From: Pseudomonas cremoricolorata | Lineage (GTDB): Bacteria > Pseudomonadota > Gammaproteobacteria > Pseudomonadales > Pseudomonadaceae | Direction of reading: 5' to 3' | Length of the DNA stretch: 64,000 bases | NCBI RefSeq assembly: GCF_000759535.1 | Contig: NZ_CP009455.1 | Coordinates: forward strand, 558,001 to 622,000 | Shown: positions 38,293 through 64,000 of the stretch, piece after piece | Layout: every line of letters begins with the position of its first letter | Numbering within the stretch: position 1 is the first letter of the stretch | Notes under the pieces: generated by a model | Told to the model about the DNA's origin: nothing | Database searches by the model: none | What the model saw: the letters and a program-made list of their open reading frames with translations, nothing else | Made by a program: the position numbers and the translations under genes

Positions 38293-38300
38293 CATTCCAT

Positions 38301-38620: not shown

Positions 38621-38665
38621 CTTTGTTTGACAGCAGATGGTGGCGGCCTCGAAGAGGAAGCAACC

Positions 38666-38908: not shown

Positions 38909-39051
38909 CCGGCGCCACCACAATCCCGATCTGGGCTTATCAAAGCCGCAACTCCCGCACGGGCCGTTGACCTGCATTGAAAGTGCCGCTGGAACGGTCC
39001 AGCCAGACCCTTCCAGCGAACAGCGCAACCAGGGCATAGGAAAATCCAACA

Positions 39052-46610: not shown

Positions 46611-46632
46611 CCTAGCAATAACGCTAGTGGCA

Positions 46633-47571: not shown

Positions 47572-47572
47572 A

Positions 47573-48916
47573 TCAGACCGCCTCCGACAACATATTTTCA
47601 TTAGCGACTTCCGTGTCCGGTAGGCGCAGCTGGCCGGAGATCAGCCGAGGCAGCAGGGTGTCACGAATCTGGGTGAGAGTTTTGGCGTGCTCTTGGTTGG
47701 CCGAAATTTTCTGCTGAATGCTACCAACGGCAAGTCCAAACGCTTCCGCAACTTTGTCCGAAGGAACGACCACGCTGTACCGTCCAAGGACATCATTCTG
47801 CACCCTCTGCCGACCACTGGTGCCGGACATGCTCTGTATTGCATATTCACGAAACATGGGATGACGAGCCAGTAAGTATCCATGATAGGGCGGCAGCGGC
47901 GCTTTTGGACGCAGCACTACAAATTCAGTCGAGCCCCACCCGGTTTGATCGTTTGACAGGAAATCGACAAAAGCAGATTTGCCATTTTCTAGACAAGGTG
48001 TAATCCGAGCAAGCAGAGTATCGCCGTTGATGAATTTTGTGCCCCCCCCCACCTCTCGGTTAATAAAACCGCTAACAACATGGCCTTGCGTACCAACACT
48101 AGCCATGTCGAGGTAGGGTGCCACTTCGCCTTTTTTAAGCTTACGTGGCGGATTGATTTCATATGCCGATTCAAGAGGCATCAGTCGCCAACCCATTGGC
48201 ACCAGCCCCGACTCAGACTCTTCAAAACTATCGGGAAACAGCGCTGCGGTGGTTGCATCCATGCCTACTGGTTCAAGATTCTCGGCTTTAGATCGCACCG
48301 GGTCGAAATCGACAAACCAAGATTTGAACAGCGCCTGGGCGATGGCTTCTAAGGTGGTGTTGGTTTCGCGGAGCAGGGTGATGCGGTCGTCGAGAGCTCC
48401 AAGAGTCGCAGCGATACCAAGTTGTGATTGTAGGGGCGGCAGAGTGATCGGAACAGCTGAGAGAATTCCGGTGTTCAAGTTCGGCATGGTCGCGCCGACG
48501 GCATGACGAATCAGCCATTCTTTAGTTTCCGGAAGCCGAAGACAGTACGATATGAACTTTGCGTCTGCAATCGCTTCATCTCCCAACCTAACTTTTAGAC
48601 AGCCGGTCCCACAGAGCCATCCCACCTCATGCAGACGAACCAGTGCATTCTTGGTTACATCACCACGACGGCTGAACACTATGTCTCCAATTTTTAATTT
48701 ATGTTGGGATAAGCGCTCAACATCAAAGCCATCAATACGGGCTATGCAGTCCTCATCAATTCCGCTTTCACCAATATTAGTTGGCATCACGACAGGAATT
48801 CCAAATTCCTTGTAATCTGACGTGTGCAGTTGACTACCGAAAGGGCCTGTCTGGATAGCCCCACCTTGAGCCCCACAAATCTCTCCTAATGTCGTATTCA
48901 GCCACTCAAAACTCAT
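47573..48916 (-). CDS. hsdS: type I restriction enzyme specificity subunit S
   Basis: A 447-residue specificity subunit that selects the DNA target. Two target-recognition domains (about 1-150 and 215-390), each followed by a conserved helical stretch (LRETNTTLEAIAQALFKSWFVDFDPV near 180-205, and a C-terminal one). A run of nine G (48042-48050 on the plus strand as C) sits in the second recognition domain, near residue 290. It overlaps hsdM by 11 bases. Confidence 0.93.
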   Translation of the reverse strand: MSFEWLNTTLGEICGAQGGAIQTGPFGSQLHTSDYKEFGIPVVMPTNIGESGIDEDCIARIDGFDVERLSQHKLKIGDIVFSRRGDVTKNALVRLHEVGWLCGTGCLKVRLGDEAIADAKFISYCLRLPETKEWLIRHAVGATMPNLNTGILSAVPITLPPLQSQLGIAATLGALDDRITLLRETNTTLEAIAQALFKSWFVDFDPVRSKAENLEPVGMDATTAALFPDSFEESESGLVPMGWRLMPLESAYEINPPRKLKKGEVAPYLDMASVGTQGHVVSGFINREVGGGTKFINGDTLLARITPCLENGKSAFVDFLSNDQTGWGSTEFVVLRPKAPLPPYHGYLLARHPMFREYAIQSMSGTSGRQRVQNDVLGRYSVVVPSDKVAEAFGLAVGSIQQKISANQEHAKTLTQIRDTLLPRLISGQLRLPDTEVANENMLSEAV

Positions 48917-50639
48917 AGCCCAGCCCCCCCAACTTCTGGCGAATCAACTGATCGAGCTCGGCGCCCTTGGCCAGTTGCTCGCCCAGCAGCGCCGTGAGAA
49001 TCTGCATCTTGTCGGCGAAGGCTTCGTCGTCATCCTCGATGACCTCGGCACCGACATAGCGGCCCGGGGTCAATACATGGCCATGCTCTGCGATTTCTGC
49101 GAGGGGCACGCTGCGGCAGAAACCAGCCACATCGGCGTAATCGCCAATCTCACTCCCCTCATCCAACGGCACCCCGCGCCAGTTCGCCACAGTCTGGGCA
49201 ATGTGCTCGATGTCGCTTTCGAGCAGCTCGATCTGTACTCGGCTGATATTAGTGCCGAGCTTGCGCGCGTCGATAAACAGCACCTCGCCAGGGCGTTTGG
49301 TTTTCTGCTTGGCCAAAAACCACAGGCAGGCCGGGATCTGCGTGTTGAAGAACAGTTGGCCCGGCAGGGCCACCATGACTTCGACCACGTCGGCCTCGAC
49401 CATAGCCCGACGGATGTCACCCTCAGTGTTCTGGTTAGAGCTCATGGAGCCATTTGCCAGGACAATGCCGGCACGACCACTGGACTTGAGGTGGAACAAC
49501 ATGTGCTGCAGCCAGGCGTAGTTGGCGTTGCCGGCGGGTGGCGTGCCGTAGACCCAGCGCGGATCACCTTCCAGGCTGCCATGCCACCAGTCGCTGACGT
49601 TGAACGGCGGGTTAGCCAGAACGAAATCGGCGCGCAGGTCACTGTGCTGGTTTCGCACAAAGCTGTCGCCCGGCTCCTTGCCGAGGTTGAAGTCGATGCC
49701 GCGGATAGCCAGGTTCATTGCCGCCAGGCGCCAGGTGGTCGGGTTGGACTCTTGGCCGTAGATCGACACGTCGCCCAGCTTGCCACCGTGGGCCTCAATG
49801 AATTTTTCCGACTGCACGAACATGCCGCCGGAGCCACAGCAGGGGTCGTAAACCTTGCCGTGGTGCGGATTGAGCACGGCGACCAGGGTCTTGACGATGC
49901 TGGCCGGCGTGTAGAACTGGCCGCCTTTTTTGCCTTCGGCACTGGCGAACTGGCCGAGGAAGTATTCATAGACCTGGCCGAGCAGGTCGCGGGCGACGTT
50001 GGCGTCGCCGCCGAAACCAATGGTCGAGATCAGGTCAACCAACTCGCCGAGCTTGCCATCCGGCAGTTGGGCGCGGGCATATCGCTTGTCGAGGATATTC
50101 TTCAGCGACGGGTTTTCCGCTTCGATGGCGGCCAGCGCCTCGTCGATACGCTTGCCGATGTCGATCTGCTTGGCGGCGGCCCGGAGCGACTCCCAGCGGG
50201 TCGCTTCCGGTACCCAGAACACGTTGACTTCCTTATAGTAGTCACGCTCTTCCAATTCCCCAGCCAGGTATTCAGGATCGTCGCTGCCCAGGTAGTAATC
50301 ATCCGTGGCGTCGGCAAAGCGACGCTCCAGCTCGGCACGGCGGCCGGCGAAGCTGTCGGAGATGTACTTGAGGAAGATCAGGCCGAGCACGATATGCTTG
50401 TATTCGGCGGCGTCCATATTGGCGCGCAGCTTGTCGGCGGTGGCCCACAGAGTCTTTTCCAGATCCTGCAGCGTGTTGCTGGTGGCGCTGACAGCGGCCT
50501 TGCGCCCGCGCTTCTTTTTATCCAGCTCCGATTCTGGCTCGGCCCCGGCTTCGCTCGGCGCCAGGCGGGTGCGGGCCTGCTTGAGTGCCTGTTCAGCGAG
50601 ACTTTTGGCGGCCTGTTCGGTACCCTTTTGATCCGACAT
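48906..50639 (-). CDS. hsdM: type I restriction enzyme methyltransferase subunit M
   Basis: N6-adenine methyltransferase of 577 residues. Helical N-terminal HsdM_N domain (about 50-165), SAM motif DPCCGSGGMF (near 290) and catalytic NPPF (near 365, NPPFNVSDWW). Start at MSDQKGTEQAAKS. The upstream extension of the frame is not conserved. First gene of hsdM-hsdS-COG2958-hsdR. Near its 3' end lies a run of seven G (48924-48930). Confidence 0.95.
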   Translation of the reverse strand: MSDQKGTEQAAKSLAEQALKQARTRLAPSEAGAEPESELDKKKRGRKAAVSATSNTLQDLEKTLWATADKLRANMDAAEYKHIVLGLIFLKYISDSFAGRRAELERRFADATDDYYLGSDDPEYLAGELEERDYYKEVNVFWVPEATRWESLRAAAKQIDIGKRIDEALAAIEAENPSLKNILDKRYARAQLPDGKLGELVDLISTIGFGGDANVARDLLGQVYEYFLGQFASAEGKKGGQFYTPASIVKTLVAVLNPHHGKVYDPCCGSGGMFVQSEKFIEAHGGKLGDVSIYGQESNPTTWRLAAMNLAIRGIDFNLGKEPGDSFVRNQHSDLRADFVLANPPFNVSDWWHGSLEGDPRWVYGTPPAGNANYAWLQHMLFHLKSSGRAGIVLANGSMSSNQNTEGDIRRAMVEADVVEVMVALPGQLFFNTQIPACLWFLAKQKTKRPGEVLFIDARKLGTNISRVQIELLESDIEHIAQTVANWRGVPLDEGSEIGDYADVAGFCRSVPLAEIAEHGHVLTPGRYVGAEVIEDDDEAFADKMQILTALLGEQLAKGAELDQLIRQKLGGLGYEF

Positions 50640-51085
50640 GGACTGTTCCCTACATTCGACGCAGATGTATTGCGCGATAAAAAATGAAAACCCGACCACA
50701 GGGGCTCGGGCGAAGATAGCTGCATGATACCTGGGCAGATAGCTATTCGCTGAACCTCCTCGGCATCAGGGACAACCCAGCTGCTTCGGCGTATGCGACC
50801 TACGATGCAAACTTCCGCGCACATTAGGCCGTTGAGCTACCGACGCCAAGACTGGACAAGCTCACAGGTAAACAATCCAGGCAGGCCTCGCTGGCGATAC
50901 TGCGTTAAAAACACCTCAGGCGGCTGAAACCTCAGTATTTGCAAATGCAGAAACGAACAACCTGCACCCAAAATTGGCACATACCTGTTTAGCGCCGCGT
51001 AGGGAAGCAGGCATTAATGGCGTATCGATGTTGGCCTTCACCTTTCTAACTCGATTGCAATCTCGATAAATCAAAAGCTCAGCCT
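50640..51085. other. 446-base gap between zorD and hsdM
   Basis: No gene seen. It contains one terminator-like hairpin (50678-50710) and presumably the hsdM promoter. The gap separates the Zorya and restriction-modification units. Confidence 0.5.
50678..50710 (-). terminator. possible terminator after zorD
   Basis: CCCGA / TCGGG (50691-50695 with 50706-50710) with a ten-base loop, followed on the minus strand by TTTTCATTTTTT. The stem is short, but the T-rich tail is good. Confidence 0.4.
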
Positions 51086-54000
51086 TTACCGCGCACCCAG
51101 CAACTCCTCAAAATCTGAAGCCTGAAGCTCCGAAGCCCCACTCAACATATCTCGCGCCAACGCCCGCCGCTTGCTCAGCAGCTCATCCAACGTCGCCTCA
51201 AATGTCGGCATCGCCGCATCCCGAACCGTCGGGTAGTACACATACACATCCTTCTGCTGCCCAATCCGATAGGCCCGATCGGTCGCCTGATCTTCCTTGG
51301 CCGGGTTCCAGCAGCGCGTGAAGTGAATGACGTGGTTGGCGGCCTGCACGTTCACTCCGAATCCGACGGCGATAGTGGACAGGATGATGACGGCGAAACC
51401 CGGCAACTCCTGGAATTGATCGATCAGCCTCTGTCGGCTATTGGCACTCTGACTGCTGGTACTGGTGTCACCGTTGATGACCGTCGCCCGAAACCCGAAA
51501 TGCTTCTGAATTGCGTGCTGCAATTCACGCTGAATATCACGCAGTTCGGTAAAGACGATGACCTTGTCACCGTTACCGTCCCTTTTTATCGACTCGAGAG
51601 TTTTCATCAACCATTGCAGTTTCGGCGAGTTGTCGCGCAACCGCGTGTCTGGCTGAACGCTATAAGGATGGGCGCAAATCAGCTTGAGCTTATGCAGCAA
51701 GCCGAGCATGCCGGAGGTCTTTTGATCGAGCTGCTCTTCGATCTGCTGCTTCTGGCTGTATGCGGAAATTTCGGACAGATACAGGTTACGCTGCAGGGTA
51801 TGCATGCCAAGTGAACGGCATGCTGCGTCTTCGATTTTAGCCGGCAGGTCCTTGGCGATGTCCTGCTTGGTCCGCCGCAAAGTCTGCGGTTCGATAAGCC
51901 CACGCAGGCGTTCCAGCGCATCCGTATCACGCTCCAGTGCGGCTTCGATGGGGCGCTGATAGTCGCGACCGAACTGGTTCAAGCCGCCCAGAAATCCTGG
52001 CTGAATGAAGTCGAACAGACACCAGAGATCGATCAAGGTATTTTCGACTGGTGTACCAGTACACGCCACTCGGAAGCGTGCAGGGATAGCTTTGATCGCT
52101 TGAGTCACCAGTGCCGCCGGGTTCTTCAGCTTCTGAGCTTCGTCACACACGACGATGGACCATTGCTGGCGCGCTAGGGAAAATTCCTGATCGCGCAGTG
52201 TCTCGTAAGTCGTCAGGACGATTCGGGCATCGCCCATCCAACCTGGACGCAGCAGGTTCTTGATGCCTTTGGCTTTCAAGTCCGCTGGGATTTCATCTTT
52301 CTTGAACTTCACTGCACTCAAGGCTGAGCCGTACAGCTTCAATACAGGCAGCGCGTCAGCAAAGAAGAAACAGTGAAGCTCTCGCTCCCAGTTATCGAGC
52401 AACGAAACCGGAGCGACGATCAGCGTTGGCTGATCTTTTGGGTACTGTTCCAGGTACCAGACCAGGAAGGTGAGCAACTGGATCGTTTTCCCAAGCCCCA
52501 TGTCATCAGCGAGCAAGCAACCCGATACGTCCGTGGGAGACAAGCGGAACAAATGCTGCAACCACGCCACGCCTTGCAACTGATGGTCACGCAGAACGAC
52601 TTCAGGCTTGAGCAAACCAGGCAACTCTGGCGTTGCACCCAAAGCGGCGCTTAACGCTGCTTGACGTACCTGTACGTAAGTCGGCTCGTCAATGTTGTGG
52701 CCGATTTGCAGTACGGCGCGGCCAACTTTCTCCCGTTGCTCAACCTGGCCGGTCTCGACAGGTGCAATCTTCTTCGACCAGGCATCCAACAGTTGTTCTG
52801 CTGCGGCAATCGAGAGTGGTATTTCAGACTCTTGCAAACACACCGTGTCATCGCCGGCAGCACGCGCTTCATCCAACCGCTGCCCAAACGCTTCAAATTG
52901 AGCGCGGTCGGAAGGGTCCCACCGACCGAGGATTCCTGCGTCGATGCCCAGCGCTGCCACATCCTTCGGCAACCAGTTCTCGGTCGCCTCTTTGACCAGG
53001 AAAGGCGAAGTAATTCTTTCCGCTTCCCCAATGCCCGTCACGCGGTCGCCGTAGAGGGAAAGGTCCAGGACCGAGTCAAACTCGATACCGGCCGCCTCGT
53101 TTTGCCAACGTTTAAGCAGGTCATTGATGCCTGCCAACTGGCGCAAATCAAAATCGCTGAGCTCCAGCTCATAGCCCTGCCAGAAGCCCGCAGGCATACC
53201 GGCGGCCAACTTCAGCTGCAGTTCATGCACAAGCGGCGCGAATTCATGGGCCGCTTTGAACTCAATTTCGATAGGCGCCTGCGGGGTTGGAGAAATCGGC
53301 TCGAGCGTCAGTGTTACCTGCTCAATACGCTGGCCCGCTTCATCCAGTTTGGGTTCCAGATGGAAGCGATGAAAGAAAATACCGGCCTCAGCGAGCTCGT
53401 CTTCATAGGCTTCGGCATCCAGCACGTGTGCGGCACTTTCGCCGAGTGAGCTGTAAGGGTTACGGACGAATGAAAGGGCATCGTCACCAGCAACCCGACG
53501 CCCGGGTAACGAACGCACGTAGTCCAGTACCGATTTGACTTCAGGCTCAATCAGAACATGAGTCAGCGAGCCATCGTCACCCGTTATCCGGTACCGATCC
53601 TGAACCTGCTTGGCACCGTCAAAGCTCTCAAGCCAGTTGGCCGGCTGGCCATCAAAGCTCGGTTGCAACTCGATAACTGGTATGTCGCCAAGCGTCGACT
53701 TTCGTGGGTTGAGCCGCAGTTTCTCGGGTTTGATAACGACGGTCTTATCCAAGAAGCCATCCATACCAGCGCCAGCCTTGCGCGCCAGCTTTCTGATGCT
53801 GGCCCAGCCGATCTGGTTGGTTACTTCACCGGGCTCATTTTGTTGTGCCAGATAAAGCTGTCGTACAGCACCGATCAGTTTCCAGGACGCCTCAGGCAGC
53901 ATTTCTTTGGCTCCCTGATGTTGAACGATGCCCCCCGTTCGCTGCACCTGCACGCTGGCATTGGACTGCGGATCACGCCAGCCACTGATGGAGACCTTGA

Positions 54001-54334
54001 AATCGTCGGAGGCAAGGCTGCCCTGGCTGCTCAATTGAGGGATGAGGGCTTTCTGCGGCGGCAACCCCAATAGTGGCAGGCTTGTTTCGTGCTCTGGCTC
54101 ATCCAGCAGCCGGTAGAGCTCATCCCACGTCAAGAGCCAGCGATCGCTCAATTGGGAAACGAACTCCTCTTCTTCCAGCTGATCAAGATAACTCGCCAGC
54201 GACCAGGACTCCGTGCTCTCCGCCAAGCTCAGGGGATAACAGATGCCCTGCTCTTCAATGGAAAAAACCGGCTCAGAATTTTCTGCTGCCGAGTTCGGCT
54301 GCAGGCCAATGCCTTTGAGGAAACGCTTGAGCAT
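51086..54334 (-). CDS. zorD: Zorya protein ZorD (Snf2-family helicase/nuclease)
   Basis: DNA translocase of the type I Zorya antiphage system, 1082 residues, the family length. Snf2 motifs are clear: Walker A DDMGLGKT (610-617), Walker B DEAQ (731-734), TGTPVEN and the final QATDRAYRIGQ. The N-terminal 570 residues are the Zorya-specific part. In E. coli ZorD the Walker B pair is at D730/E731, one residue away, as far as I recall. It overlaps zorC by one base (TAATG). Confidence 0.92.
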   Translation of the reverse strand: MLKRFLKGIGLQPNSAAENSEPVFSIEEQGICYPLSLAESTESWSLASYLDQLEEEEFVSQLSDRWLLTWDELYRLLDEPEHETSLPLLGLPPQKALIPQLSSQGSLASDDFKVSISGWRDPQSNASVQVQRTGGIVQHQGAKEMLPEASWKLIGAVRQLYLAQQNEPGEVTNQIGWASIRKLARKAGAGMDGFLDKTVVIKPEKLRLNPRKSTLGDIPVIELQPSFDGQPANWLESFDGAKQVQDRYRITGDDGSLTHVLIEPEVKSVLDYVRSLPGRRVAGDDALSFVRNPYSSLGESAAHVLDAEAYEDELAEAGIFFHRFHLEPKLDEAGQRIEQVTLTLEPISPTPQAPIEIEFKAAHEFAPLVHELQLKLAAGMPAGFWQGYELELSDFDLRQLAGINDLLKRWQNEAAGIEFDSVLDLSLYGDRVTGIGEAERITSPFLVKEATENWLPKDVAALGIDAGILGRWDPSDRAQFEAFGQRLDEARAAGDDTVCLQESEIPLSIAAAEQLLDAWSKKIAPVETGQVEQREKVGRAVLQIGHNIDEPTYVQVRQAALSAALGATPELPGLLKPEVVLRDHQLQGVAWLQHLFRLSPTDVSGCLLADDMGLGKTIQLLTFLVWYLEQYPKDQPTLIVAPVSLLDNWERELHCFFFADALPVLKLYGSALSAVKFKKDEIPADLKAKGIKNLLRPGWMGDARIVLTTYETLRDQEFSLARQQWSIVVCDEAQKLKNPAALVTQAIKAIPARFRVACTGTPVENTLIDLWCLFDFIQPGFLGGLNQFGRDYQRPIEAALERDTDALERLRGLIEPQTLRRTKQDIAKDLPAKIEDAACRSLGMHTLQRNLYLSEISAYSQKQQIEEQLDQKTSGMLGLLHKLKLICAHPYSVQPDTRLRDNSPKLQWLMKTLESIKRDGNGDKVIVFTELRDIQRELQHAIQKHFGFRATVINGDTSTSSQSANSRQRLIDQFQELPGFAVIILSTIAVGFGVNVQAANHVIHFTRCWNPAKEDQATDRAYRIGQQKDVYVYYPTVRDAAMPTFEATLDELLSKRRALARDMLSGASELQASDFEELLGAR

Positions 54335-55983
54335 TACTGTCTCCAGAACCGGAGTGGCTGGTTATTGACGGGCCTGAAGCCCAGGCGCTGCAGTGCAGTT
54401 ACTGCGGCCGGGTCATGATCATCAAGCTGGACCTGAAATGCACCGCCGCGCTCGCGCTGATCATAGACCTTGTGTTTGACCGACTTTAGAGCGTCACGGA
54501 CCTGGTCTTCAAAAGGCAACGGCTTGGCTGAACCTGCCGCTGCGATCTGACTCTGTACACGAATACCCCATTGCTCGAGGGCATAATCGAATTTGCTGAG
54601 CCAACCCTCTATGCGGTCCGGGCGACTGGGTGCAGGTGAATGCCGCATTCGGTCCAGTGCACGATTAGGCTGCTTCAGCTCGCTCGCCAATTCGAGCTGC
54701 AACTTGTCTGGATTGAATGGTGACTTGTCTGCTTGATACACATAGCAGGCATTACCGGTACCGGAGAACTCGACGAAAAAGTAGTTCCCGATCTGCATGA
54801 TGACGGCGTTGTTATGACCGGGGCCGCCTACCAGTCGGCTGAGGCGCCCTTTGTTCTTCCCTCGGAAGTGGACGAAATCTCGCCCGCTGTCGTGCCAAGC
54901 ATCCGACCCCATGACAATCCGGGTATAACTCATTTGGTTGGCAAAACGCAGCCAATAATGCAGACGAGATTGATCGACTTCTGCTTCCCCTTTCAGCAGG
55001 TTGAAGAAGTGCTCCAGATCCTCCTTCGCAAACCACGCCACAACCATCGCGCACACATCATTATCGACATACTGCAGCCAGCTGTTTTGTCTGGAGCGGA
55101 TCTGCGGACTACCCCAATTGTCGAGCGCAAGCTGTTTGAGCAGCGACGATGGCTTCTCCCGATAAGCTGCCAAGTGGTAACGCGACAGGCATGCACTCAG
55201 AATGTCGTTCATGTACCGCGGGTGCTGCCGGCCGATGTCGATCAGGTCGGCCAAGCGCTGAGAAAACTCGGCGTCATCCAGCATGAAAATGCGAGAAATC
55301 AGCACGGTAAAAATCCTGCGCCACAGCCAGCTGTTGTCCGGGATCTGCGCAATCGTCTGCAGGGCAGAAAGGTCGCTGATCTCGCCCTTGAACATCTGGT
55401 CACCCAGGGTGGCACCTGCCTGCTCGGAAAAAAGCTCCTGATGCTGCTGAACGATCTGCACCCATTCCTTCACACGCGTTTGCTGGTCTCTGACACATTC
55501 GAAACCGAGCTGAACATCTTCGCGCAACAGACACCAATTGGCGTTCTGCGCAGGCTTGGCGGCGTCGTAGCCAAAGTAGCTGAAGCACAGCGCCAACCAA
55601 TCCCGGCGGTTCAGTCTTCGCTTTTCGATACGCTGATGTACTTCTTCGTGCACCCGGGCATAAAGCTGGTCATCGTCCAGTATCGGCCCGACGCGCTCAC
55701 TCTTGTCGGAAAGGCCGGCGAATACCAAGCGCCATTCCGAGGCGTTGAGTGGTAGTACATTGCGAAACTTGCTTATCGCAGCACGGCGCTTTTCTTCGGG
55801 TGGCGGCAAGGCCTTTTCAGCGCGCTCGAATCGCTCGTAAAGATCGACTCCCGCAGCAGCCAGACGGGGAAATCGCTCCAACGGTTCTGGGGCCTGCACC
55901 GTGCGATGAGCTGACAGGCTTTGGCTAATGGCGGCGGAAAGCCTCGCGATTGAACTGGTCATCGGTTCATCGCCAACTGACAT
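54334..55983 (-). CDS. zorC: Zorya protein ZorC (EH_signature domain)
   Basis: A 549-residue soluble protein at the ZorC position, with the helical EH_signature-type C-terminal half (WLRFANQMSYTRIVMG, HFRGKNKGRLSRLVGG). ZorC is thought to bind DNA and to link the motor to ZorD. The ATG at 55962 overlaps the zorB stop as ATGA and is the likelier start (542 residues). The longer start at 55983 is given as the outer limit. Confidence 0.88.
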   Translation of the reverse strand: MSVGDEPMTSSIARLSAAISQSLSAHRTVQAPEPLERFPRLAAAGVDLYERFERAEKALPPPEEKRRAAISKFRNVLPLNASEWRLVFAGLSDKSERVGPILDDDQLYARVHEEVHQRIEKRRLNRRDWLALCFSYFGYDAAKPAQNANWCLLREDVQLGFECVRDQQTRVKEWVQIVQQHQELFSEQAGATLGDQMFKGEISDLSALQTIAQIPDNSWLWRRIFTVLISRIFMLDDAEFSQRLADLIDIGRQHPRYMNDILSACLSRYHLAAYREKPSSLLKQLALDNWGSPQIRSRQNSWLQYVDNDVCAMVVAWFAKEDLEHFFNLLKGEAEVDQSRLHYWLRFANQMSYTRIVMGSDAWHDSGRDFVHFRGKNKGRLSRLVGGPGHNNAVIMQIGNYFFVEFSGTGNACYVYQADKSPFNPDKLQLELASELKQPNRALDRMRHSPAPSRPDRIEGWLSKFDYALEQWGIRVQSQIAAAGSAKPLPFEDQVRDALKSVKHKVYDQRERGGAFQVQLDDHDPAAVTALQRLGFRPVNNQPLRFWRQ

Positions 55984-56702
55984 TTTTCCACGTCAGTGTT
56001 AGTGAACACCGGCACATCAGGCTTGAGACTGCTCTCCTTCTCCTTCAAGCCAAAAAACTGCATGCGCAACTCCACTCTCCGGCTTTCTTCCTTGGTGTCC
56101 TTTGCATTGTTGAACGACACGCCGCCCGCCAGAAACATCGATCTGATCTGCTGTTGGTGCTCCGGCGACAATCCGACCTGAAGCGGGCTACGACTATCGA
56201 GCAGGCTGCACATCACCCACTCCGAACGCTGCAGTGACAAGTGCAAGTTATAAAGGTAGGAACCATCGGTGTCGGTCGATCCCTCGATCACAACCTGTTT
56301 GAACCACTTGCGCCCCTCTTCACTGTTAGCCGCGTCCAAAATCATCGGCACGACCTCCTGAAGTGCCGATTGGCCATCGTTGCTCAGCGCGTACTGGTTA
56401 TGCCCAAAACGGCCAGCATCGTCGAAGCTGATTCGGTTGTCCTTACAGTCCACAATGATGGTCTTGCTGGCAGTCTTCGCCTTGAGGCTCAGGTGCTCGC
56501 AGATCTGGCTGATGTCCTTGCTACGCTGCTTCTCCCCCTGTTCCGCCTGGTTGATCCGCTGCGTCACAGAACTCAAAGCCGCCACCATGACCACGAGAAA
56601 CAGAATCATCATCGCGGTCATCAAATCAGCGAAGGAAATCCAGAAAGGCTTCTCTCCCTCGTCCTTTGAACGGGCAGCCGAAGGCATTTGCTTACCAAAC
56701 AT
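55959..56702 (-). CDS. zorB: Zorya protein ZorB (MotB/OmpA-like)
   Basis: Stator partner that anchors the Zorya motor to peptidoglycan, 247 residues. One transmembrane helix (about 23-45) carries D26 (ISFADLMTA), the proton-carrying aspartate, at the same number as I recall for E. coli ZorB. An OmpA-like domain follows (EGSTDTDG at 140-147, NLHLSLQRSEWV at 152-163, SRRVELRM at 208-215). It lies 13 bases after zorA. Confidence 0.92.
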   Translation of the reverse strand: MFGKQMPSAARSKDEGEKPFWISFADLMTAMMILFLVVMVAALSSVTQRINQAEQGEKQRSKDISQICEHLSLKAKTASKTIIVDCKDNRISFDDAGRFGHNQYALSNDGQSALQEVVPMILDAANSEEGRKWFKQVVIEGSTDTDGSYLYNLHLSLQRSEWVMCSLLDSRSPLQVGLSPEHQQQIRSMFLAGGVSFNNAKDTKEESRRVELRMQFFGLKEKESSLKPDVPVFTNTDVEKCQLAMNR

Positions 56703-56715
56703 CGACTAGCCTCCG

Positions 56716-58908
56716 TTACCGCCTGATACGTTCCATGATGTCGCCGAAATCTTCGAGACTTTCCTTGACCCCTTCCACACCGCCGGCGAGGCTTTTGACT
56801 GCTTTATCGAGCTCGGTGTCAAGGCTGCCCAGGGTTTGTCTCAACGCCCGGTCCATACCTTCACCGAATTCCTTGAAGCCGTTACTCAGCACACCACTGA
56901 TGTTTTCGAGGTATTCATACACTTCACGGTTGAGCGACTGCATCCGCTCGCTTTGAACCTTCAGGTCCTGGAGATATTGGCTGCGCCCGCTGGCTTCCCC
57001 TTGTGCACTGGCAACTACCCCTTCGATGACAGCGAGCGTTTTCGCGAGCGCTTCACGATTGTTCCGGTAGTCCGCGACAACGGTATTGAGCTCTCGCGAA
57101 GCCTGTGCAAGTTCAGCCCCTGCGCCCTGGACTGTACCCATCAACCCTGCAGTCGATTCACTGGCTCGCACAACGCTTTGCCCGGCAGTTTCAAATCGCT
57201 CAGCCGCCGCCCGCATCTTGTCCGCACCTAGCTGCATGCTGTGCAGATGCTGCTCTGTCTGGGCGCTCAATGCATTGACAGTGTCCTGGGCAGATTTCTG
57301 TTGCTCGGAAACCGTCTGCAGCAATGCCTTGACCTGCTCGTCGAGGCCACCCACCAGGTCGCGGGTACCTTGGTGCAGGTCTGCTTGGGCTGCGCGGGTG
57401 GATTGATCCATCTGCTGCTGGCCCTGTTCCAGTTGCTTGAAGACTGCAGAGAGCTGCTCACCCAGCACCTCAACGGAGCCTGCAATCTTGGCCATGGTTT
57501 CCTGCTGGCCTTGGCCGATGCTCTGCTTGATCGACTCGACAAAAGCCTGGAGATTCTCAGCCATTGCCTGTTGGCGAGCCTCGCTTTGAGCAAACAGCTT
57601 CTCCATTTGCTCGGCCATTCGAGCGCCAGCCCCCTCCCCTTCGTTGCCGATACGGGCAACCGAAGCCTGAAGATTGGCGAGCATCTCGTTCATCCCCGCT
57701 TGCATGGCGTTTTGTCCGGCCTGCATATCGGCCAGTAGCTGGGCAATCATGGTCGAACTGCTTTGATTCGAGGACTCGCTAGCCGAGCGCATATCCTGGA
57801 TCAGCGTCGAGAAGCCCTGCTGCATCGACTGCATGGCGGCAACCGACTGGCCCATCAACTCGTGGAGGCCATTGAACTGTTGCCCGAACGTTCCTTCCAG
57901 CTTGTTCATGAATGCAACCAGAACATCCTGGAGCAGGTTCTGAACCTGCCCGGACTGATCGCCACTGGCGGCCTGCACGGCACCCGCGATGGCTTCAAGC
58001 GGCGACTTGAGGCTATTTTCAATTGCCCCGCTCACCTGGTCGGCTAGCAGTTGCCCAGAGTCACGGTAGGTCGTCGACAAGGTATCTGCCAATTTGAGGC
58101 TTTCACGGACCTGGGTATCAACCAGGTTCTGTAGCATTTCCCGCAAATCAGTAACGAGGCTGTCCTTCAGCTGACGGGTTTGCACCGAGCTTTCAGCACT
58201 GGAGCGCACCAGCTCGGCCAGGTATTCCTCGCCGACACCGCTGTCAAAAAGCCCGTCGATGGTTTCATTGAATGCCTCAAGCAGCTTGTAGCAGTGTCCC
58301 AAGCGCCACTTTTCAGTAAGCGTGACGGCGATAGAGGCCATGATTGAAATGAATGAGCCGATGAAAGCGAACAGCACGTCTTTCAACAGCTTATCGACGC
58401 TGGCGTTAACCTGTTCAGGCGTGCTTGGGTCAAAGTGCTGAAGACCTAGCATCAAGCCGAAGAAGGTTCCGACGATCCCGATACCGGTCAAAATACCCGG
58501 TAGGTGCTTGTAGAACTCGGTCCCCAGCGGGGTATCAACCACACTTTGAGGTGAGAAGAAATGTGCAGCACCGGCAGTGGCTCGTGATCGGAGAAGAACC
58601 TGTTCGCCCTCCTTGAGCTCGAACTGATCGTGCAGCGTTTCAGCATACTCGCGCCAGGAATGCTCCAGTCTGCTGCCACTGAACAGTCGCTCCAGCTTAG
58701 AACGCCGGAGAGATGGATCGAGAGTTTTCACGTTCTGCAAGCTAACAGTCAAACGTTTCAGCTGGGCACTAAGCTTGAATGACCTACAGAAGTAACGGAC
58801 GAAGTACCAAGCGCAAAGAATGAAAACGAGACCAACAACCATTTTGGGTGCGATCAGCTGCTCAGAGCTTGCTGCACCCCACAGGTGCAACAACGTCGAA
58901 AAATCCAT
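56716..58908 (-). CDS. zorA: Zorya protein ZorA (MotA/ExbB-like motor)
   Basis: Motor subunit of the Zorya proton channel, 730 residues (E. coli ZorA is about 729). Three membrane segments (about 21-43, 139-157, 178-198). T148 and S185 correspond to the channel-lining T147 and S184 I recall for E. coli. From about 215 to the end a long helical, Gln/Ala-rich tail reaches into the cytoplasm. Start at MDFSTLLHLW with GAAGG upstream. A TTG five codons earlier is less likely. First gene of zorABCD. Confidence 0.92.
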   Translation of the reverse strand: MDFSTLLHLWGAASSEQLIAPKMVVGLVFILCAWYFVRYFCRSFKLSAQLKRLTVSLQNVKTLDPSLRRSKLERLFSGSRLEHSWREYAETLHDQFELKEGEQVLLRSRATAGAAHFFSPQSVVDTPLGTEFYKHLPGILTGIGIVGTFFGLMLGLQHFDPSTPEQVNASVDKLLKDVLFAFIGSFISIMASIAVTLTEKWRLGHCYKLLEAFNETIDGLFDSGVGEEYLAELVRSSAESSVQTRQLKDSLVTDLREMLQNLVDTQVRESLKLADTLSTTYRDSGQLLADQVSGAIENSLKSPLEAIAGAVQAASGDQSGQVQNLLQDVLVAFMNKLEGTFGQQFNGLHELMGQSVAAMQSMQQGFSTLIQDMRSASESSNQSSSTMIAQLLADMQAGQNAMQAGMNEMLANLQASVARIGNEGEGAGARMAEQMEKLFAQSEARQQAMAENLQAFVESIKQSIGQGQQETMAKIAGSVEVLGEQLSAVFKQLEQGQQQMDQSTRAAQADLHQGTRDLVGGLDEQVKALLQTVSEQQKSAQDTVNALSAQTEQHLHSMQLGADKMRAAAERFETAGQSVVRASESTAGLMGTVQGAGAELAQASRELNTVVADYRNNREALAKTLAVIEGVVASAQGEASGRSQYLQDLKVQSERMQSLNREVYEYLENISGVLSNGFKEFGEGMDRALRQTLGSLDTELDKAVKSLAGGVEGVKESLEDFGDIMERIRR

Positions 58909-59272
58909 ACCTTCCGCCTTCAATTAAGCTTTTTTGATATTCAGCAAGACCGCATTGCCCACACGGATGCGCCAATCGCCTGCCCCGCTGGGGACAGCGA
59001 CAGCACCTTGCCAAGCACGTTTTGGGGCACTACAAGCTCGGAGTGGAATGGGCGCATCAATGCGCCCCCAGAACCTTTGAAAAAATGCCAGAGAACAATA
59101 TCTTTATGCCATCACCTTAGCCTGAGCCGTAACCGTCGTAAAGCCGGGAACCACTAATGGCCCCCTGACTTTTGGATACCGAAAAAGCTTGTCGAGGGCG
59201 CTCCATGCCTTAACAAGCAGGCGGCTGAATGACGGCATGGGATTCGCTGAAATCCCAAGCCTTCGCTACCCG
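58909..59272. other. gap upstream of zorA
   Basis: Holds the presumed zorA promoter. A hairpin GGGCGCA / TGCGCCC (59050-59056 with 59061-59067) has no T run. On the minus strand a start-less frame of about 45 codons ends at 58924 (its last part reads GDWRIRVGNAVLLNIKKA). It may be a gene relic or chance. Confidence 0.4.
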
Positions 59273-61303
59273 CTAGCGGTTACAGAAATCCCTTTGATAA
59301 TGGCGTCGCATTGCCTCCAGCATTGCAGTTTGATGCGCTTCTGCCTTCGCATCACCCCATTCGCTATTCGAATATATCAAGTCCATTTTCAAAGAGTCTG
59401 GCCGCTTCTCAAGGGCTCGCTTGTTGAGGAATCGCTGGCGCTTTTCGTTGTATGGCAGGTTGCTGTACTCGGAGTTGATACTGCGCGAGACCAGCGCCAA
59501 ATTGCCAAAGCGGTTCAGCCAGGCGCTGGTGACCTTATTGGTATCGGTCGCCTGTGGACTCTGCGGCGAAATATGTTCCACCGAGTTCTTGGCTGTGAAG
59601 CGGAAGTTGCCCCATGCCTCATGATCACGATGCTGCTCATGCCAGAGCACAAAGTCCAGCTTGTAGAACCAGTAATGAGCAAAGTCGACGCCGTAATCGC
59701 AGGGCAACACTGCCTCGAATTGAAGCGCAGCGGCGGTACGCCAGGGCTCATTCATGAATGCCCGCGTGCGCACTACCAAGGGATCGCTCGTCACTTCCCC
59801 GAGCAATTGGTTATCCAAATGGCACAGGAAGCCGTAGTAGCGCTCAACCTCCTCCACGCCGCCACGCACGGTTTGCGCATGCTTATGGATGAAATAGAGG
59901 AACGGTGTCAGCCAATAATGGGTGGTGATCTCCTGGGAGTGGTAGAGCATGCTCTGCAGTAACGACATGCCTTGTTTCAGATCATTGTCACGGCTGCGAT
60001 TGATGTAACGCTTGTCATCATTGGCAGAGATCGAGGTGTGGCAAATTTGATGAACCTCGTCATCCCCCTGATCGACCCACTTGATTGCGTATTCATCCCA
60101 AAGCACTCGCATACGCCAGAGCAGGTCAATGAACCCTTGTGCCCTCGCGTTACGCTGCGCGGGCTCCGCCGGCTGCAGTAAATGGGCCTCAAACAAGGTA
60201 AGCAGGTGCCGATCCAGCACGCGGGGCAGATCTGGCTGCCCTTGCTCTTTCAACCAGATACGCAGCACATGCAGAAGGAACAAAGGGAAGCCAATAATAC
60301 TGCGCGCCCATGGTGCCTCCCCTTCGTCCATCGCGATGGTCGCGGATCCATTATCAAACTTGGGATCTGCGCCGTTGACAATGCTCTCCAAGGTCAGCCG
60401 TTCAGCAGATTCCACCTGTGCAGCCTCGACTCTTCGCGACAGCAGTCCGTGCACAGCTACTGCGTGAAGCAACTGCCCTTTGCTATAGAGATCACCCAAG
60501 CGGTGAGCCTCCAGCTGTGTATCCTGGCAGAGATTACGTTCGACAAAGCCACTCATGTCGGCACAAGCGTTCCACAAAGCTGCGTAACGGGAACGGCTTT
60601 CGGCGGGGATGTCGCGCAGTAGCCTAGCCTTGAGAATTTCGTGATGCTGAAGCTGGATGCCGCGGTTGTTGATGACCTCAAACAACTTGTTCAAGTCCAT
60701 CCCCTCAGGCACCTGAGTGAGCACGAGCGAAACCTTGCGATAAACGAAGGAAGCCAGCTCCTTGAGGTATTCGTCATCCACAGGCTTGCCATCCGCACGC
60801 TTGTAGGACTGCTTGAAAGAAGCCATCAGTTGCTGAGCTTCTCTCATGCTTTGAGTATCCGGGATCTCTGGGCTTGCTCCACTCTTGCCAGGCATCATGC
60901 TGGCAAGGAAAGTGCTCACCTGCTCGCGGATCGAGAAATGCAAGCGTGGAATAACGCTGTCTTTCAGCACTACCCTGCTGAAATCACCCATCACCTGGTT
61001 CCATATGGCGACCGTGCTGAGCATCCAAAGCGTCGTGAAGCGCTGCTGTCCATCGATCAGGTCGAAGCGGCGCAGCCCCTTAAGGCGATCTTGCTCAGAG
61101 GGTTTTTCAACCAGCAGGGCACCACCCAGAAAAAACTGGTCTTCGCCCCGATCAAAGGCATTCGCCATATCGGTCAGCAATGTCTTGATCTGATCATCAC
61201 CCCAGACGTACAGCCGCTGGTAGATAGGCACGTTGAAGCACCAGGCCGCGTCGTCTTGATTAACCAGCTGTTCCAAGGTGAAGAGACGAGAATCAATACT
61301 CAT
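59273..61303 (-). CDS. DUF262-DUF1524 protein (GmrSD-like nuclease)
   Basis: A 676-residue protein with both halves of the GmrSD fold. The N-terminal DUF262 part has VPIYQRLYVW (25-34) and the DGQQR nucleotidase motif (84-88), with FEVINNRGIQL later. The C-terminal DUF1524 part has the His-Me nuclease motif SVEHISP (574-580), FGNLALVS and NSEYSNLPYNEKR. GmrSD proteins restrict modified DNA. Here it is coupled to a second DUF262 gene by an 11-base overlap. Confidence 0.88.
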   Translation of the reverse strand: MSIDSRLFTLEQLVNQDDAAWCFNVPIYQRLYVWGDDQIKTLLTDMANAFDRGEDQFFLGGALLVEKPSEQDRLKGLRRFDLIDGQQRFTTLWMLSTVAIWNQVMGDFSRVVLKDSVIPRLHFSIREQVSTFLASMMPGKSGASPEIPDTQSMREAQQLMASFKQSYKRADGKPVDDEYLKELASFVYRKVSLVLTQVPEGMDLNKLFEVINNRGIQLQHHEILKARLLRDIPAESRSRYAALWNACADMSGFVERNLCQDTQLEAHRLGDLYSKGQLLHAVAVHGLLSRRVEAAQVESAERLTLESIVNGADPKFDNGSATIAMDEGEAPWARSIIGFPLFLLHVLRIWLKEQGQPDLPRVLDRHLLTLFEAHLLQPAEPAQRNARAQGFIDLLWRMRVLWDEYAIKWVDQGDDEVHQICHTSISANDDKRYINRSRDNDLKQGMSLLQSMLYHSQEITTHYWLTPFLYFIHKHAQTVRGGVEEVERYYGFLCHLDNQLLGEVTSDPLVVRTRAFMNEPWRTAAALQFEAVLPCDYGVDFAHYWFYKLDFVLWHEQHRDHEAWGNFRFTAKNSVEHISPQSPQATDTNKVTSAWLNRFGNLALVSRSINSEYSNLPYNEKRQRFLNKRALEKRPDSLKMDLIYSNSEWGDAKAEAHQTAMLEAMRRHYQRDFCNR

Positions 61304-62825
61304 GGCGATCTTCCTGGCAAGCCTTCAAGTACGTTTCGAGCCATTGCGATTTACCCGCAAGGGTCGAGCATTCGGAGTGCAACTGCCCTTGATAGAAATC
61401 CAGGACTGCCCTCTTGTATCGTCCCTGCACCCCCTGCCCTGTTGCTACCGTTTCGTTAGCATACGAAGACGCCACCGCTTGTTGTCGGTGCTGAAGAAAG
61501 TCCAGCACCTGCTTCGGGTGATAACTCTGGGCAATCACATCCAACAGGTTAAGCTCGGCCAGCCTGAAGAAATTGGCCGCGGTTTCCTGCTTGACCTGTT
61601 TTTTCTCCAGGCGAATCGCGCCCAGCAAAAACTCCAAGCGCAGGGCAAAGGCGGTCAATTGTTCAACGTCGAACCGATCGACATACATCAGGCTACAGAG
61701 CATGAAAATCTCGCGCAGGTACTGCTGGTTACTACGCAGCAGCTGTTTGTAAATCGAGCGGAACATACTGACCTGCGGACAAGGAGCAGGATCATTCATT
61801 AGCCGTTGCAGCAACGCTGCGTACTTGTCTGCGTATAGAAAGAACCCAACACCTTCATGGATGGGCTGACGCAACGCCATAGGCAGGCTTGCAGGATTTT
61901 GCCCGACTCGCAGCTGGCTACCCTGCAGCACATAATCACCATCTCCCGCCAGCGTCATGCAGGACGCTAGCCGATTGTGCCGGGTCGCGTAGAGCGGCAC
62001 GCTGTCAATACGACTACGGCTGTCGGCGGCGTGGGGCCAAGTGTCGCGCTGGAATTCTGCCAGGAGCGGTTCGTGCTTCCCCGCAGGCGTGTGCGATCCG
62101 CGCCAACGCCGCGCACGCCAGAGAAAACGATTGAATAAGTTAGGGGCGAAGTTCTGACCTGGGCTCAGCACCGCCGGGTGGCGTTGCAGCCTCTCCCAGC
62201 GCTCTGCACAGTCCCTCTGCAGTGCAGCCTTGAGTTCAGTCTTCCCTTGCGCGTAGTCGATCGCACGCAGGTGATAGGCCTTGAGCAGGTCAGTGGCCTC
62301 CAAGCGCACCCCGCGGTTGTTCTGGGTGTCGAAGAAGGTGAAAGCGAGGTCAGTGCTGTCCACTTCGATCACTGTCAGCCGCAGCCTTTCGATGATCTGC
62401 GGCGCAATCGCCTCCATTTGCTTCAATGCTTGCAATCCCTCAGCAATATGTCGCGCGGATTGGCCCGAATAGCTGAGTACCTGCCCCACTGGCAGCTTGC
62501 CGGTAGAGCGGTGGTACAACAGTGAGAGCGCGGTGATGCGCTGCTGACCATCAATAATGAACCGCTTCGACTGGCTTGCATCACGATGCAGCAGTACACC
62601 ACCCATGTAGTAAGGCAGGGAGGTATCCGCCTGTGCTGCATATGTTGCTAGGTCATTGACCAGTTGCGTCAGCTTGTCTGGCCCCCAGACGAAACCTCGC
62701 TGATAGCTGTCCAATGCCAACGGCCAATCGCTTGCATTGAGTAATTCTGCGAAAGACAGAGTACTGACCCGTACAAGCGAACTCGGCTTCGCGGGTAGAA
62801 TTTCCCGATTCAATTTTCGTCCCAA
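61293..62825 (-). CDS. DUF262 protein without nuclease domain
   Basis: A 510-residue DUF262 protein: YQRGFVWGP (41-49), IDGQQRITAL (91-100) and FDTQNNRGVRLEATDLLKA. I find no DUF1524 HisPro-type motif in the C-terminal half, so it is likely a partner or sensor rather than a nuclease. The start is a TTG. The TTG at 62813 overlaps the preceding stop as TTGA and would shorten it by four residues. It overlaps genes at both ends. Confidence 0.85.
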   Translation of the reverse strand: MGRKLNREILPAKPSSLVRVSTLSFAELLNASDWPLALDSYQRGFVWGPDKLTQLVNDLATYAAQADTSLPYYMGGVLLHRDASQSKRFIIDGQQRITALSLLYHRSTGKLPVGQVLSYSGQSARHIAEGLQALKQMEAIAPQIIERLRLTVIEVDSTDLAFTFFDTQNNRGVRLEATDLLKAYHLRAIDYAQGKTELKAALQRDCAERWERLQRHPAVLSPGQNFAPNLFNRFLWRARRWRGSHTPAGKHEPLLAEFQRDTWPHAADSRSRIDSVPLYATRHNRLASCMTLAGDGDYVLQGSQLRVGQNPASLPMALRQPIHEGVGFFLYADKYAALLQRLMNDPAPCPQVSMFRSIYKQLLRSNQQYLREIFMLCSLMYVDRFDVEQLTAFALRLEFLLGAIRLEKKQVKQETAANFFRLAELNLLDVIAQSYHPKQVLDFLQHRQQAVASSYANETVATGQGVQGRYKRAVLDFYQGQLHSECSTLAGKSQWLETYLKACQEDRHEY

Positions 62826-63562
62826 CGTTTACGCAGCGTCCTGATCAGCGCGTTTCCTCGCAACGCGCGGCCGTCTGGCCCACAGAGTGCGACAGAGCCT
62901 TCCGGTAATCCGAAGACATCTTCGATCCTTGCCCGTATGGTGCTCACTTTCGCATCCGAGCGTGCGGCCCGATAGCGAGCCGCCTTCCGGTTTCCGACAA
63001 CAACCGTCGAGTCTTCTTCCTGATCATCCGAAGCCTCCAGATCCTCGGCATCCCAGATCTCTTCCGCATCCTCCTCCTCGATCAGCTCGCCATCGTCGTC
63101 GGCCTCTTCAGCCTCGTCGACTTCAGCGGTCAGGTCAGCCAGCGTCTGGGCATGGGAGTACCATGTGCTGGCATCCTCTTGTTCCCACACTAAGCCATCC
63201 TGGACATGGAAGGTGCGCAGCGCTGCGGAAGACGGAACGTAATCACTGAATCGCGACCTCACGGCCGGTAAACGTTCAAAGCCAGCCCCCAAGGCACGCA
63301 GCACTTTTTCTGGGCCTGCGACCAGCAAAAACTCAGACCAGCACGGCTCGCGGAAATTGACGCTGACAGTACCGTACATGTAGAGAGTCGCCCGCAGTGA
63401 TGCGTCCTGCTCAGCCAATTGGGTGAGTACCTGCATCACCGTGCGATAGATGCTGAAACCTGCGTCCTCGATGGACTGCGAATCGACCTCGACTGTGGGT
63501 AAGGGCGATTTACTGTTGACGAACGCGAGCTCCGTCACCGATTTCTTGATCATTGCCTTCAT
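62810..63562 (-). CDS. unknown acidic protein upstream of paired DUF262 genes
   Basis: A 250-residue protein of no family I know. Residues 1-140 look globular. Residues 147-184 are almost all Asp and Glu, a short basic patch (191-201) follows, and the C-terminal 45 residues (TIRARIEDVFGLPEGSVALC, then GPDGRALRGNALI) resemble the helix and following strands of a ubiquitin-like beta-grasp fold. It lacks a C-terminal GG. An ATG at 63553 with GAAGG upstream is an alternative start. It overlaps the next gene. Confidence 0.7.
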   Translation of the reverse strand: MKAMIKKSVTELAFVNSKSPLPTVEVDSQSIEDAGFSIYRTVMQVLTQLAEQDASLRATLYMYGTVSVNFREPCWSEFLLVAGPEKVLRALGAGFERLPAVRSRFSDYVPSSAALRTFHVQDGLVWEQEDASTWYSHAQTLADLTAEVDEAEEADDDGELIEEEDAEEIWDAEDLEASDDQEEDSTVVVGNRKAARYRAARSDAKVSTIRARIEDVFGLPEGSVALCGPDGRALRGNALIRTLRKRWDEN

Positions 63563-63687
63563 TCCTTAAGCGGGACCTTGGGTGGGCGTCACGAAGTGAT
63601 TTTTCAGAATTGCAAACTCTGGGATGAGCCTTGTCTGACAACGAAAACTGTCAGAACCTGTACTCAACACTGGCCCTGGAGATTCTT

Positions 63688-64000
63688 TCAGTAAAAATAA
63701 TTCGCCTCGCACTTCTTATCGAGACCGACAAGTACACTTTGATCAATTCGACAAGCCGTTGGCGGTTCGTTTGGCCCCCAGTGTCGGCAATAATATCGCC
63801 CTTCATTCACCGCGTCCCCCTCTTCGGTAAAGACTTCGATCACCGCATTCCAGAGGGACACCCGTGGTGCCTCACTGGTGGGATCGAGACACAGCAAATG
63901 AGTGATCTGCAATTCGTCGTCATCATCAGCCTGGTACCCCTGATAACCGATTACAAGCAACCAGTGCCCTGTCTGCCCTCCTTCCCACTCAACACCGACA
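63688..64000 (-). CDS. C-terminal part of a papain/C39-like peptidase-fold protein (cut by the window)
   Basis: The frame is open through the window edge, so this is a partial gene of at least 103 residues. The sequence EGGQTGHWMLVIGYQG, then THLLCLDPTSEAP, matches the His and Asp/Asn region of papain-like and C39 peptidases (HWxLVxGY ... LDP). The Cys part would lie upstream, outside the window. An internal ATG at 63960 would give a false short protein. Whether it belongs to the next unit is unknown. Confidence 0.6.
   Translation of the reverse strand, partial: VGVEWEGGQTGHWLLVIGYQGYQADDDDELQITHLLCLDPTSEAPRVSLWNAVIEVFTEEGDAVNEGRYYCRHWGPNEPPTACRIDQSVLVGLDKKCEANYFY

Follow-up and report, generated by a model that had tools for sequence, protein, structure and literature searches.

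In Vibrio cholerae, the VPI-2 island encodes TgvAB, a restriction system of two adjacent genes, DUF262-only first and DUF262–DUF1524 nuclease second, with DGQQR and His-Me motifs; the island also holds Zorya and a type I restriction–modification (RM) system (PMC11411939, PMC12409362; all papers cited here are drawn on in excerpt). Both TgvA and TgvB were required for protection, which was lost when the nuclease His or Asn of TgvB was mutated, and phages without glucosylated cytosine escaped (PMC11411939, PMC12409362). Here, we describe a three-gene cassette of Pseudomonas cremoricolorata, lying within a stretch of 64,000 nucleotides (nt) that we call the window (positions 558001–622000 of a 4.78 Mb genome, G000:C1). 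It is probably a mobile type IV (modification-dependent) restriction unit of the TgvAB kind, encoded by its genes 2 and 3, to which an accessory subunit, gene 1, has been added. The window cassette differs from TgvAB in having this third gene in front and in lying outside a type I RM operon.

Other described systems resemble it less closely. GrwAB of V. cholerae WASA is likewise a DUF262 pair, one member with DUF1524, and both proteins are needed against phages with modified genomes; its nuclease-less partner, however, comes second, has an extended multi-domain C-terminus and is described without a third gene, whereas that of the window lies upstream and has 510 amino acids (aa) (PMC12137116). 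Single-chain GmrSD, BrxU, SspE and HEC-06 carry DUF262 and DUF1524 in one chain, as gene 3 does, but in the accounts drawn on they are single-protein systems without a counterpart of genes 1 and 2. The PADLOC models HEC-06, Orf5 and SspE gave partial matches to both genes 2 and 3; as HEC-06 is one GmrSD-like protein acting alone, a locus with two DUF262 genes was not assigned to it. The PtuXYZ candidate also has three genes, including a DUF262 protein without DUF1524, but there it is accompanied by a Septu-like ATPase and a PIN/BECR RNase instead of a DUF262–DUF1524 nuclease (PMC11980606).

A sequence-only reading of the window had stated that no described system with exactly this set of genes is known. 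The pair is covered by the TgvAB and GrwAB reports and a review (PMC11411939, PMC12137116, PMC12409362), so that this can stand for no more than the three-gene set: in the open-licence PubMed Central literature, preprints excluded, TgvAB with a third gene was absent from titles and abstract openings, and the term DUF7834, a domain of gene 2, occurs in no paper. What is new is gene 1 beside TgvAB; the gene 2/gene 3 arrangement was already described as TgvAB in 2024.

A TgvAB-like pair within a three-gene cassette

The three minus-strand open reading frames (ORFs) recognised in the sequence-only reading at 59273–63562 were all confirmed, and the cassette is laid out as follows.

62810–63562, minus strand: gene 1, accessory protein, 250 aa (N-domain, acidic linker and basic C-terminal module); an ORF under purifying selection, with no family above cut-off
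61293–62825, minus strand: gene 2, TgvA-like, 510 aa, GmrSD_N (DUF262) and DUF7834, without a nuclease domain; ORF and Pfam
59273–61303, minus strand: gene 3, TgvB-like, 676 aa, GmrSD_N (DUF262) and GmrSD_C (DUF1524) nuclease; ORF and Pfam
63155–63562, minus strand: gene 1 N-terminal domain, residues 1–136, near neutral; from charge profile and relatives, the boundary being our choice
62999–63154, minus strand: gene 1 acidic linker, residues 137–188; from composition
62813–62998, minus strand: gene 1 basic conserved C-terminal module, residues 189–250; from composition and homology to stand-alone proteins of ~50 aa
62538–62552, minus strand: gene 2 DGQQR motif, residues 92–96 (numbered from the TTG at 62825); from sequence
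61040–61054, minus strand: gene 3 DGQQR motif, residues 84–88; from sequence
59564–59578, minus strand: gene 3 EHISP stretch, residues 576–580, with candidate catalytic His577 of a His-Me finger; by analogy to TgvB H571 (PMC11411939), without alignment
59285–63629, minus strand: outer limits of the conserved cassette; from alignment to relatives

Pfam confirmed the pairing of a nuclease-less DUF262 protein with a DUF262–DUF1524 nuclease: gene 2 matched GmrSD_N (3.3e-24) and DUF7834 (1.3e-44) and did not match GmrSD_C, while gene 3 matched GmrSD_N (2.1e-27) and GmrSD_C (1.6e-18). The motifs QR, DGQQR and FxxxN are present in both proteins and EHI/GN/N in gene 3, as read by motif rather than by alignment to V. 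cholerae TgvB. Relatives of gene 2 (E ≤ 1e-10) were found in 15 of 348 Pseudomonas genomes, that of P. cremoricolorata included, and each was followed by a gene 3 relative (15/15); tgvB is split into two ORFs in G584 (L033:6106-7892) and shortened to 457 aa in G424 (L026:8689-10062), where genes 1 and 2 are retained. On plasmids, the same threshold gave gene 2 matches in 489 of 72,556 records, 464 of the 489 from Klebsiella and only 11 spanning 80% of the query. A gene 3 relative followed the gene 2 relative in all four plasmid loci opened, annotated as DUF262–HNH in three and with an insertion sequence between the two in the fourth. The Escherichia coli plasmid pLAO4 is annotated in the order methylase, S subunit, DUF262, DUF262–HNH, R subunit, and V. 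cholerae VPI-2 has the gene order of this type I RM operon with TgvAB inside (PMC12409362, PMC11411939). GmrSD_N and DUF7834 occurred together in all six other TgvA-like proteins scanned, that of pLAO4 among them.

Trees of TgvA and TgvB (18 rows each) recovered the same four groups. Within the group of the window, the TgvA tree unites the rows that bear gene 1 as a clade (82/96), a point that the TgvB tree leaves open, and the pLAO4 pair falls in the group next to that of the window with support of 87/90 (TgvA) and 98/95 (TgvB). In the nearest sister, G711 (63% identity), the pair sits between ORFs read by eye as HsdS and HsdR. Through G711 and pLAO4 the window pair groups by sequence with pairs that lie inside type I RM operons, in a comparison without the TgvA and TgvB of V. 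cholerae. The window pair is not so embedded, the RM operon being present at 43324–50699 with Zorya in between. We do not take such embedding as defining TgvAB because, in the TgvAB paper, tgvAB hits (1,341) far exceed those of the five-gene operon (79; PMC11411939). We class genes 2 and 3 as a TgvAB-type two-protein, GmrSD-type type IV restriction pair, with a putative function taken from homologues.

The limits of the cassette were read by aligning the region to eight relatives, among them P. ceruminis (L003), Pseudomonas sp. CC120222-01a (L004), P. marginalis ICMP 3553 (L005, counted with G614 as one genome), G424 (L026), G472 (L028) and G576 (L029). The block common to the window and P. 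marginalis covers 59291–63629 (91%) and ends at both ends of the three genes, the remaining matches lying only past the window end, around a WYL gene; the block common to the window and G472/G576 covers 59285–63567 (77%). Homology therefore ends at the three genes in three aligned relatives (L005, L028 and L029). In P. marginalis, P. ceruminis and G424, conservation reaches about 67 nt beyond the start of gene 1, as far as 63629; in G472/G576 the block stops 5 nt upstream of gene 1.

These blocks, together with the head-to-tail overlaps, bear out the proposal of a single operon, whose genes may be translationally coupled. The overlap of genes 2 and 3 is 11 nt, as had been given; the 16 nt given for genes 1 and 2 holds only if gene 2 starts at the TTG at 62825, and becomes 4 nt (TTGA) with the TTG at 62813. 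The figure hangs on the start choice because shorter orthologues favour the TTG at 62813: those in G472 and G576 (79% identical) have an ATG start near window residue 13–15. The three genes look like one mobile cassette that moves as a whole.

Gene 1 and its C-terminal module

Gene 1 had been called an acidic protein, which is true only of its linker, in which 25 of 52 residues are D/E and none is K/R (isoelectric point (pI) 4.05). Residues 1–136 are near neutral (pI 5.15) and the C-terminal stretch of 62 residues is basic (pI 11.1, charge +6.7). DNA-mimic anti-restriction proteins of the Ocr/ArdA kind have an acidic surface over a folded protein. The suggestion that gene 1 might be such a mimic is weakened, though not overturned, because its acidity is confined to the linker and its conserved C-terminal module is basic by sequence, as are relatives of 178–179 aa (pI 9.2–9.4).

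For genes 1, 2 and 3 in turn, ratios of non-synonymous to synonymous substitution rates (dN/dS) were 0.126, 0.117 and 0.108 between the window and its G472 orthologues and 0.122, 0.306 and 0.125 between the window and P. ceruminis, where the gene 2 ratio comes from a dS of just 0.048; against G399, gene 1 dS was saturated. Gene 1 is a protein-coding gene constrained like its partners. Neither Pfam nor NCBIfam nor PADLOC assigned it to a family above cut-off, and PHROGs gave noise only. Ten matches in 50,697 phage records (E 0.2–1, seven annotated as DNA polymerase) were also judged noise. The best weak Pfam match of the module, RKP_N (an E3 ubiquitin-ligase N-terminus; best E 0.0013, in four of seven members), was treated as chance because in another scan it reached 16.1 bits, where the cut-off is 27.

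Near-full-length relatives of gene 1 were found in G472/G576 (78%), G399 (about 64%), the Vibrio ponticus plasmid pVPon1 (34–38%) and G367 (24–28%), the last three sharing its N-domain. The V. ponticus gene, the only relative in 72,556 plasmid records, adjoins parAB, and no DUF262 gene is annotated in the 18.8 kb shown. The full-length profile matched 10 of 348 Pseudomonas genomes at E ≤ 0.001, two of them (G483 and G620) weakly, and the module profile (A2) matched nine at that threshold, eight at E ≤ 2e-31 and one (G462) weakly. Weak matches in G462, G048 and G180 were judged to be chance after viewing the ORF or its neighbours. Five of the eight strong module genomes carry this cassette, two (G656 and G618) a single-chain GmrSD and one is G399, so that the module lies beside GmrSD-type genes in seven of the eight (five TgvAB, two single-chain).

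The G656 and G618 module proteins (L058:6764-9026; L059:8460-10815), of 178–179 aa, have a different N-domain, and their genes follow, at distances of 31 and 121 nt, that of a single-chain GmrSD of 564 aa that is only remotely like genes 2 and 3 (for G656, the one scanned with Pfam, GmrSD_N 2.3e-28 and GmrSD_C 2.7e-10). The N-domain of the G656 protein also matches three Variovorax plasmids and one Roseomonas plasmid; the regions opened there had no DUF262 annotation, and the one Variovorax frame read had no module in its open frame. In G399, the gene 1 relative stands alone, downstream of an apparent type III Res remnant (a 105-aa fragment recognised by eye, with no Pfam hit); an ORF with an RE_endonuc domain follows on that strand after another 5.7 kb, and the adjoining WYL-type gene is related to one just past the window end. 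In G367 (L040:6253-15907), a genome outside Pseudomonas, the relative, with a shorter and less acidic linker, lies in a type III-like Res/Mod operon, between an N6_N4_Mtase gene, itself preceded by a ResIII gene, and a gene for a UvrD-type helicase whose N-terminus is weakly RelE/HigB-like. G367 also holds a decayed second module copy with internal stops (L086:7600-7830), between ATPase-like and P-loop genes as read by eye.

In wider samples, 13 of 369 genomes class-wide matched the module at E ≤ 0.01, of which only P. cremoricolorata itself (G000) and G367 were taken as real, and 3 of 214 phylum-wide at E ≤ 0.001 (G000, G367 and G788). The recurrence of the module beside restriction genes, in about two independent Pseudomonas cases, G367 and, more weakly, G399, is a lead, not a law.

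In G788, the module is a stand-alone protein of about 51 aa (module profile 1.9e-6; one genome, 214 searched). With this copy as query, further stand-alone relatives were found on Paenibacillus and Spirosoma plasmids: among 72,556 records, five matched at E ≤ 0.05, and in three of these the match spanned 80% of the query or more. A single faecal phage scaffold among 50,697 phage records (E ≤ 0.1) and seven IMG/VR contigs, six from one search and a seventh from another, also carry relatives. The family is listed here.

L089:1645-1797, L090:6001-6153, L091:5989-6192, L092:5989-6183, L093:5346-5489 and L094-L101: stand-alone family, ~50–65 residues, pattern RSD..V...E...LP.GTIRN..GRD.RSDK.IGT.RK

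Comparison of the module profile with that of the stand-alone sets gave a probability of 94.4 and an E of 8.5e-8 over 46 columns; its score of 39.4 compares with at most 17.0 among 200 column shuffles and with 12.9 on reversal, a control that leaves in place the selection arising from the G788 copy, which was found with the module profile itself and led to the other stand-alones. Across 11 aligned rows, the window module shares 40–44% identity with the viral ones, and 16 columns are invariant. By these comparisons, the gene 1 module is homologous to an unnamed small-protein family of plasmids and phages. The stand-alone proteins had no match at E ≤ 1 in Pfam (five scanned), PHROGs (four) or NCBIfam (four). 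Four pattern-based scans of viral contigs (gene 1, A1, A2 and gene 2) found no relative, which says little because the stand-alone query later found module relatives there.

Five of the seven IMG/VR contigs place the stand-alone gene between one ORF of ~547 aa and another of ~406 aa, the second being in two pieces in L095 and cut by the contig end in L099. PHROGs identified the first as the terminase large subunit (three of three scanned) and the second as portal (two of two). These five contigs were counted as one lineage because their terminases are near-equal in length and sequence start. In L100, the gene is on the other strand, between ORFs taken by eye for portal and terminase; L094 and the faecal scaffold have contexts other than terminase/portal, and in Spirosoma linguale the gene is flanked by genes for an S24 peptidase on one side and a DNA polymerase on the other.

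With viral rows in the alignment, the module was modelled at moderate confidence (predicted local distance difference test (pLDDT) 73.3, predicted template-modelling score (pTM) 0.49) as a helix-loop-helix, with a long helix (3–28), a loop over the conserved LPEGSV..PDGR and a second helix (47–60). Foldseek with this model gave 74 matches to solved structures at E ≤ 10, none at E ≤ 0.001, and sequence searches of the PDB gave no close match. A ubiquitin-like fold, suggested by eye, was rejected: Pfam Ub-Mut7C reached 0.074 in one of seven members, PDB support was absent and the model is helix-loop-helix.

Genomic neighbourhood

The placing of the cassette in a defence island adjoining Zorya also held: a complete type I Zorya starts 349 nt downstream, with ZorA–D all above their NCBIfam cut-offs.

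51086–58923, minus strand: type I Zorya, complete (ZorD, ZorC, ZorB and ZorA), a neighbour outside the unit; PADLOC and NCBIfam

Gene 1 with TgvAB was present in seven genomes read (the window, L003, L004, L005, L026, L028 and L029). Cassette and Zorya are both common to the window, P. ceruminis and CC120222-01a, and Zorya does not follow the cassette in L005, where a SNF2/DEAD-type helicase gene takes its place, or in L026, L028 and L029; we place it outside the unit because it follows the cassette in only three of the seven.

Beyond Zorya lies the complete type I RM operon (HsdM, HsdS and HsdR by Pfam), with a 322-aa gene without Pfam match (46633–47601) between HsdS and HsdR. Together, RM, Zorya and the TgvAB-like cassette resemble the Zorya/T1RM/TgvAB content of V. 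cholerae VPI-2. A transfer-messenger RNA (tmRNA) gene (37901–38292) is followed by DUF3987 and integrase genes (37901–42161 in all), a region that is a possible insertion site of the defence island. Past the window end (L060:4689-9517) are a 239-aa protein without Pfam or PHROGs match, whose C-terminus is the ORF at 63688–63999, two tandem septin/MMR_HSR1-type GTPases and an oppositely oriented WYL-domain gene. Directly upstream of the cassette in G472 (L028:13462-14109) and G576 (L029:13426-14073) is a 215-aa protein, which in L028, the copy scanned, gave a weak HEPN_RiboL-PSP match (0.024, below cut-off).

Possible roles of gene 1

In the reading that we favour, a TgvAB-kind restriction unit with gene 1 as an added subunit, genes 2 and 3 would form a two-protein restriction enzyme. 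Both DUF262 domains may bind or hydrolyse nucleoside triphosphate, help to read modified phage DNA and control the nuclease, and the His-Me nuclease of gene 3 would cut that DNA, giving anti-phage activity. The nuclease-less member may be the sensor of a sensor–effector pair, as the sequence-only reading suggested; in the published accounts both proteins are required. Gene 1, which opens the operon and overlaps gene 2, would supply an accessory protein in which an N-domain is tethered by a presumably flexible acidic linker to a basic module; most likely, this module docks on nucleic acid or on a restriction protein and tunes nuclease targeting or activity, in either direction.

Several observations weigh against this. 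The assignment to TgvAB comes from domains, order, motifs and grouping, not from direct comparison with V. cholerae TgvA and TgvB. Of the 15 Pseudomonas genomes with a TgvA relative, only five have gene 1, and these belong to a single subclade, at least 79% identical. The sister G711 (63%), in its apparent type I RM locus, lacks gene 1; because it and most TgvA-bearing genomes do so, TgvAB in general does not need gene 1, although the window's own enzyme may. G399 has gene 1 without TgvAB, and V. ponticus has it beside parAB. The five and two genomes with the module beside GmrSD-type genes amount to about two independent events, short-range constraint (P. ceruminis dN/dS) is less even across the three genes, and the full-length gene 1 model was unusable (pLDDT 35.7), having failed because its alignment held only near-identical rows.

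Gene 1 might instead be an inhibitor or safety subunit, antitoxin-like, which is made first and keeps the TgvAB nuclease off host DNA until infection, either through docking of the basic module or with the acidic linker standing in for DNA. Its position ahead of gene 2, with the overlap, and the 25 acidic residues of the 52-residue linker would suit this role; that no gene 1 relative occurs in the stretches read of 10 of 15 TgvAB-bearing Pseudomonas (G711 included) or beside any of four plasmid pairs, that the G656/G618 module gene comes after the nuclease gene, that the G367 linker is shorter and less acidic and that the 178–179-aa relatives are basic all make it unlikely. Somewhat less likely still is that gene 1 is a passenger, a mobile element's own gene co-mobilised with TgvAB. 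Relatives beside parAB on the Vibrio plasmid and alone in G399, and stand-alone modules on plasmids and in phages, point that way, but gene 1 overlaps gene 2, falls inside the cassette boundaries in L005, L028 and L029, is under selection like that of its partners at G472 distance, and its module has a second neighbourhood with another GmrSD.

We give little credence to gene 1 as a transcriptional or post-transcriptional regulator of the cassette, with a nucleic-acid-binding module and a sensor N-domain. The basic character (pI 11.1) and predicted helix-loop-helix (pLDDT 73.3, pTM 0.49) of the module, and the conserved ~67 nt upstream in P. marginalis, P. ceruminis and G424, agree with it; set against them, the weak Pfam matches, RKP_N foremost, include no DNA-binding family, there is no close PDB sequence or fold match, and in G472/G576 conservation ends 5 nt upstream of gene 1. 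Equally speculative is the idea that the module is an unrecognised family of interchangeable subunits, common to restriction systems that differ in mechanism (TgvAB, single-chain GmrSD and type III-like) and exchanged with phages. If so, phages would have been its donors or its recipients; in them it is a small basic protein whose gene lies between those for terminase and portal, and the host protein would sense or mimic a factor of the phage packaging locus and license the nuclease when phage is present.

The TgvAB paper and the review leave open how modified DNA is recognised and for what reason certain GmrSD-type enzymes consist of two proteins (PMC11411939, PMC12409362). As a gene that appears to move with TgvAB, and whose tail recurs beside another GmrSD and in a type III-like operon, gene 1 may offer a handle on the regulation or targeting of these enzymes, and its link to a phage and plasmid small-protein family is a concrete lead to what gene 1 touches.

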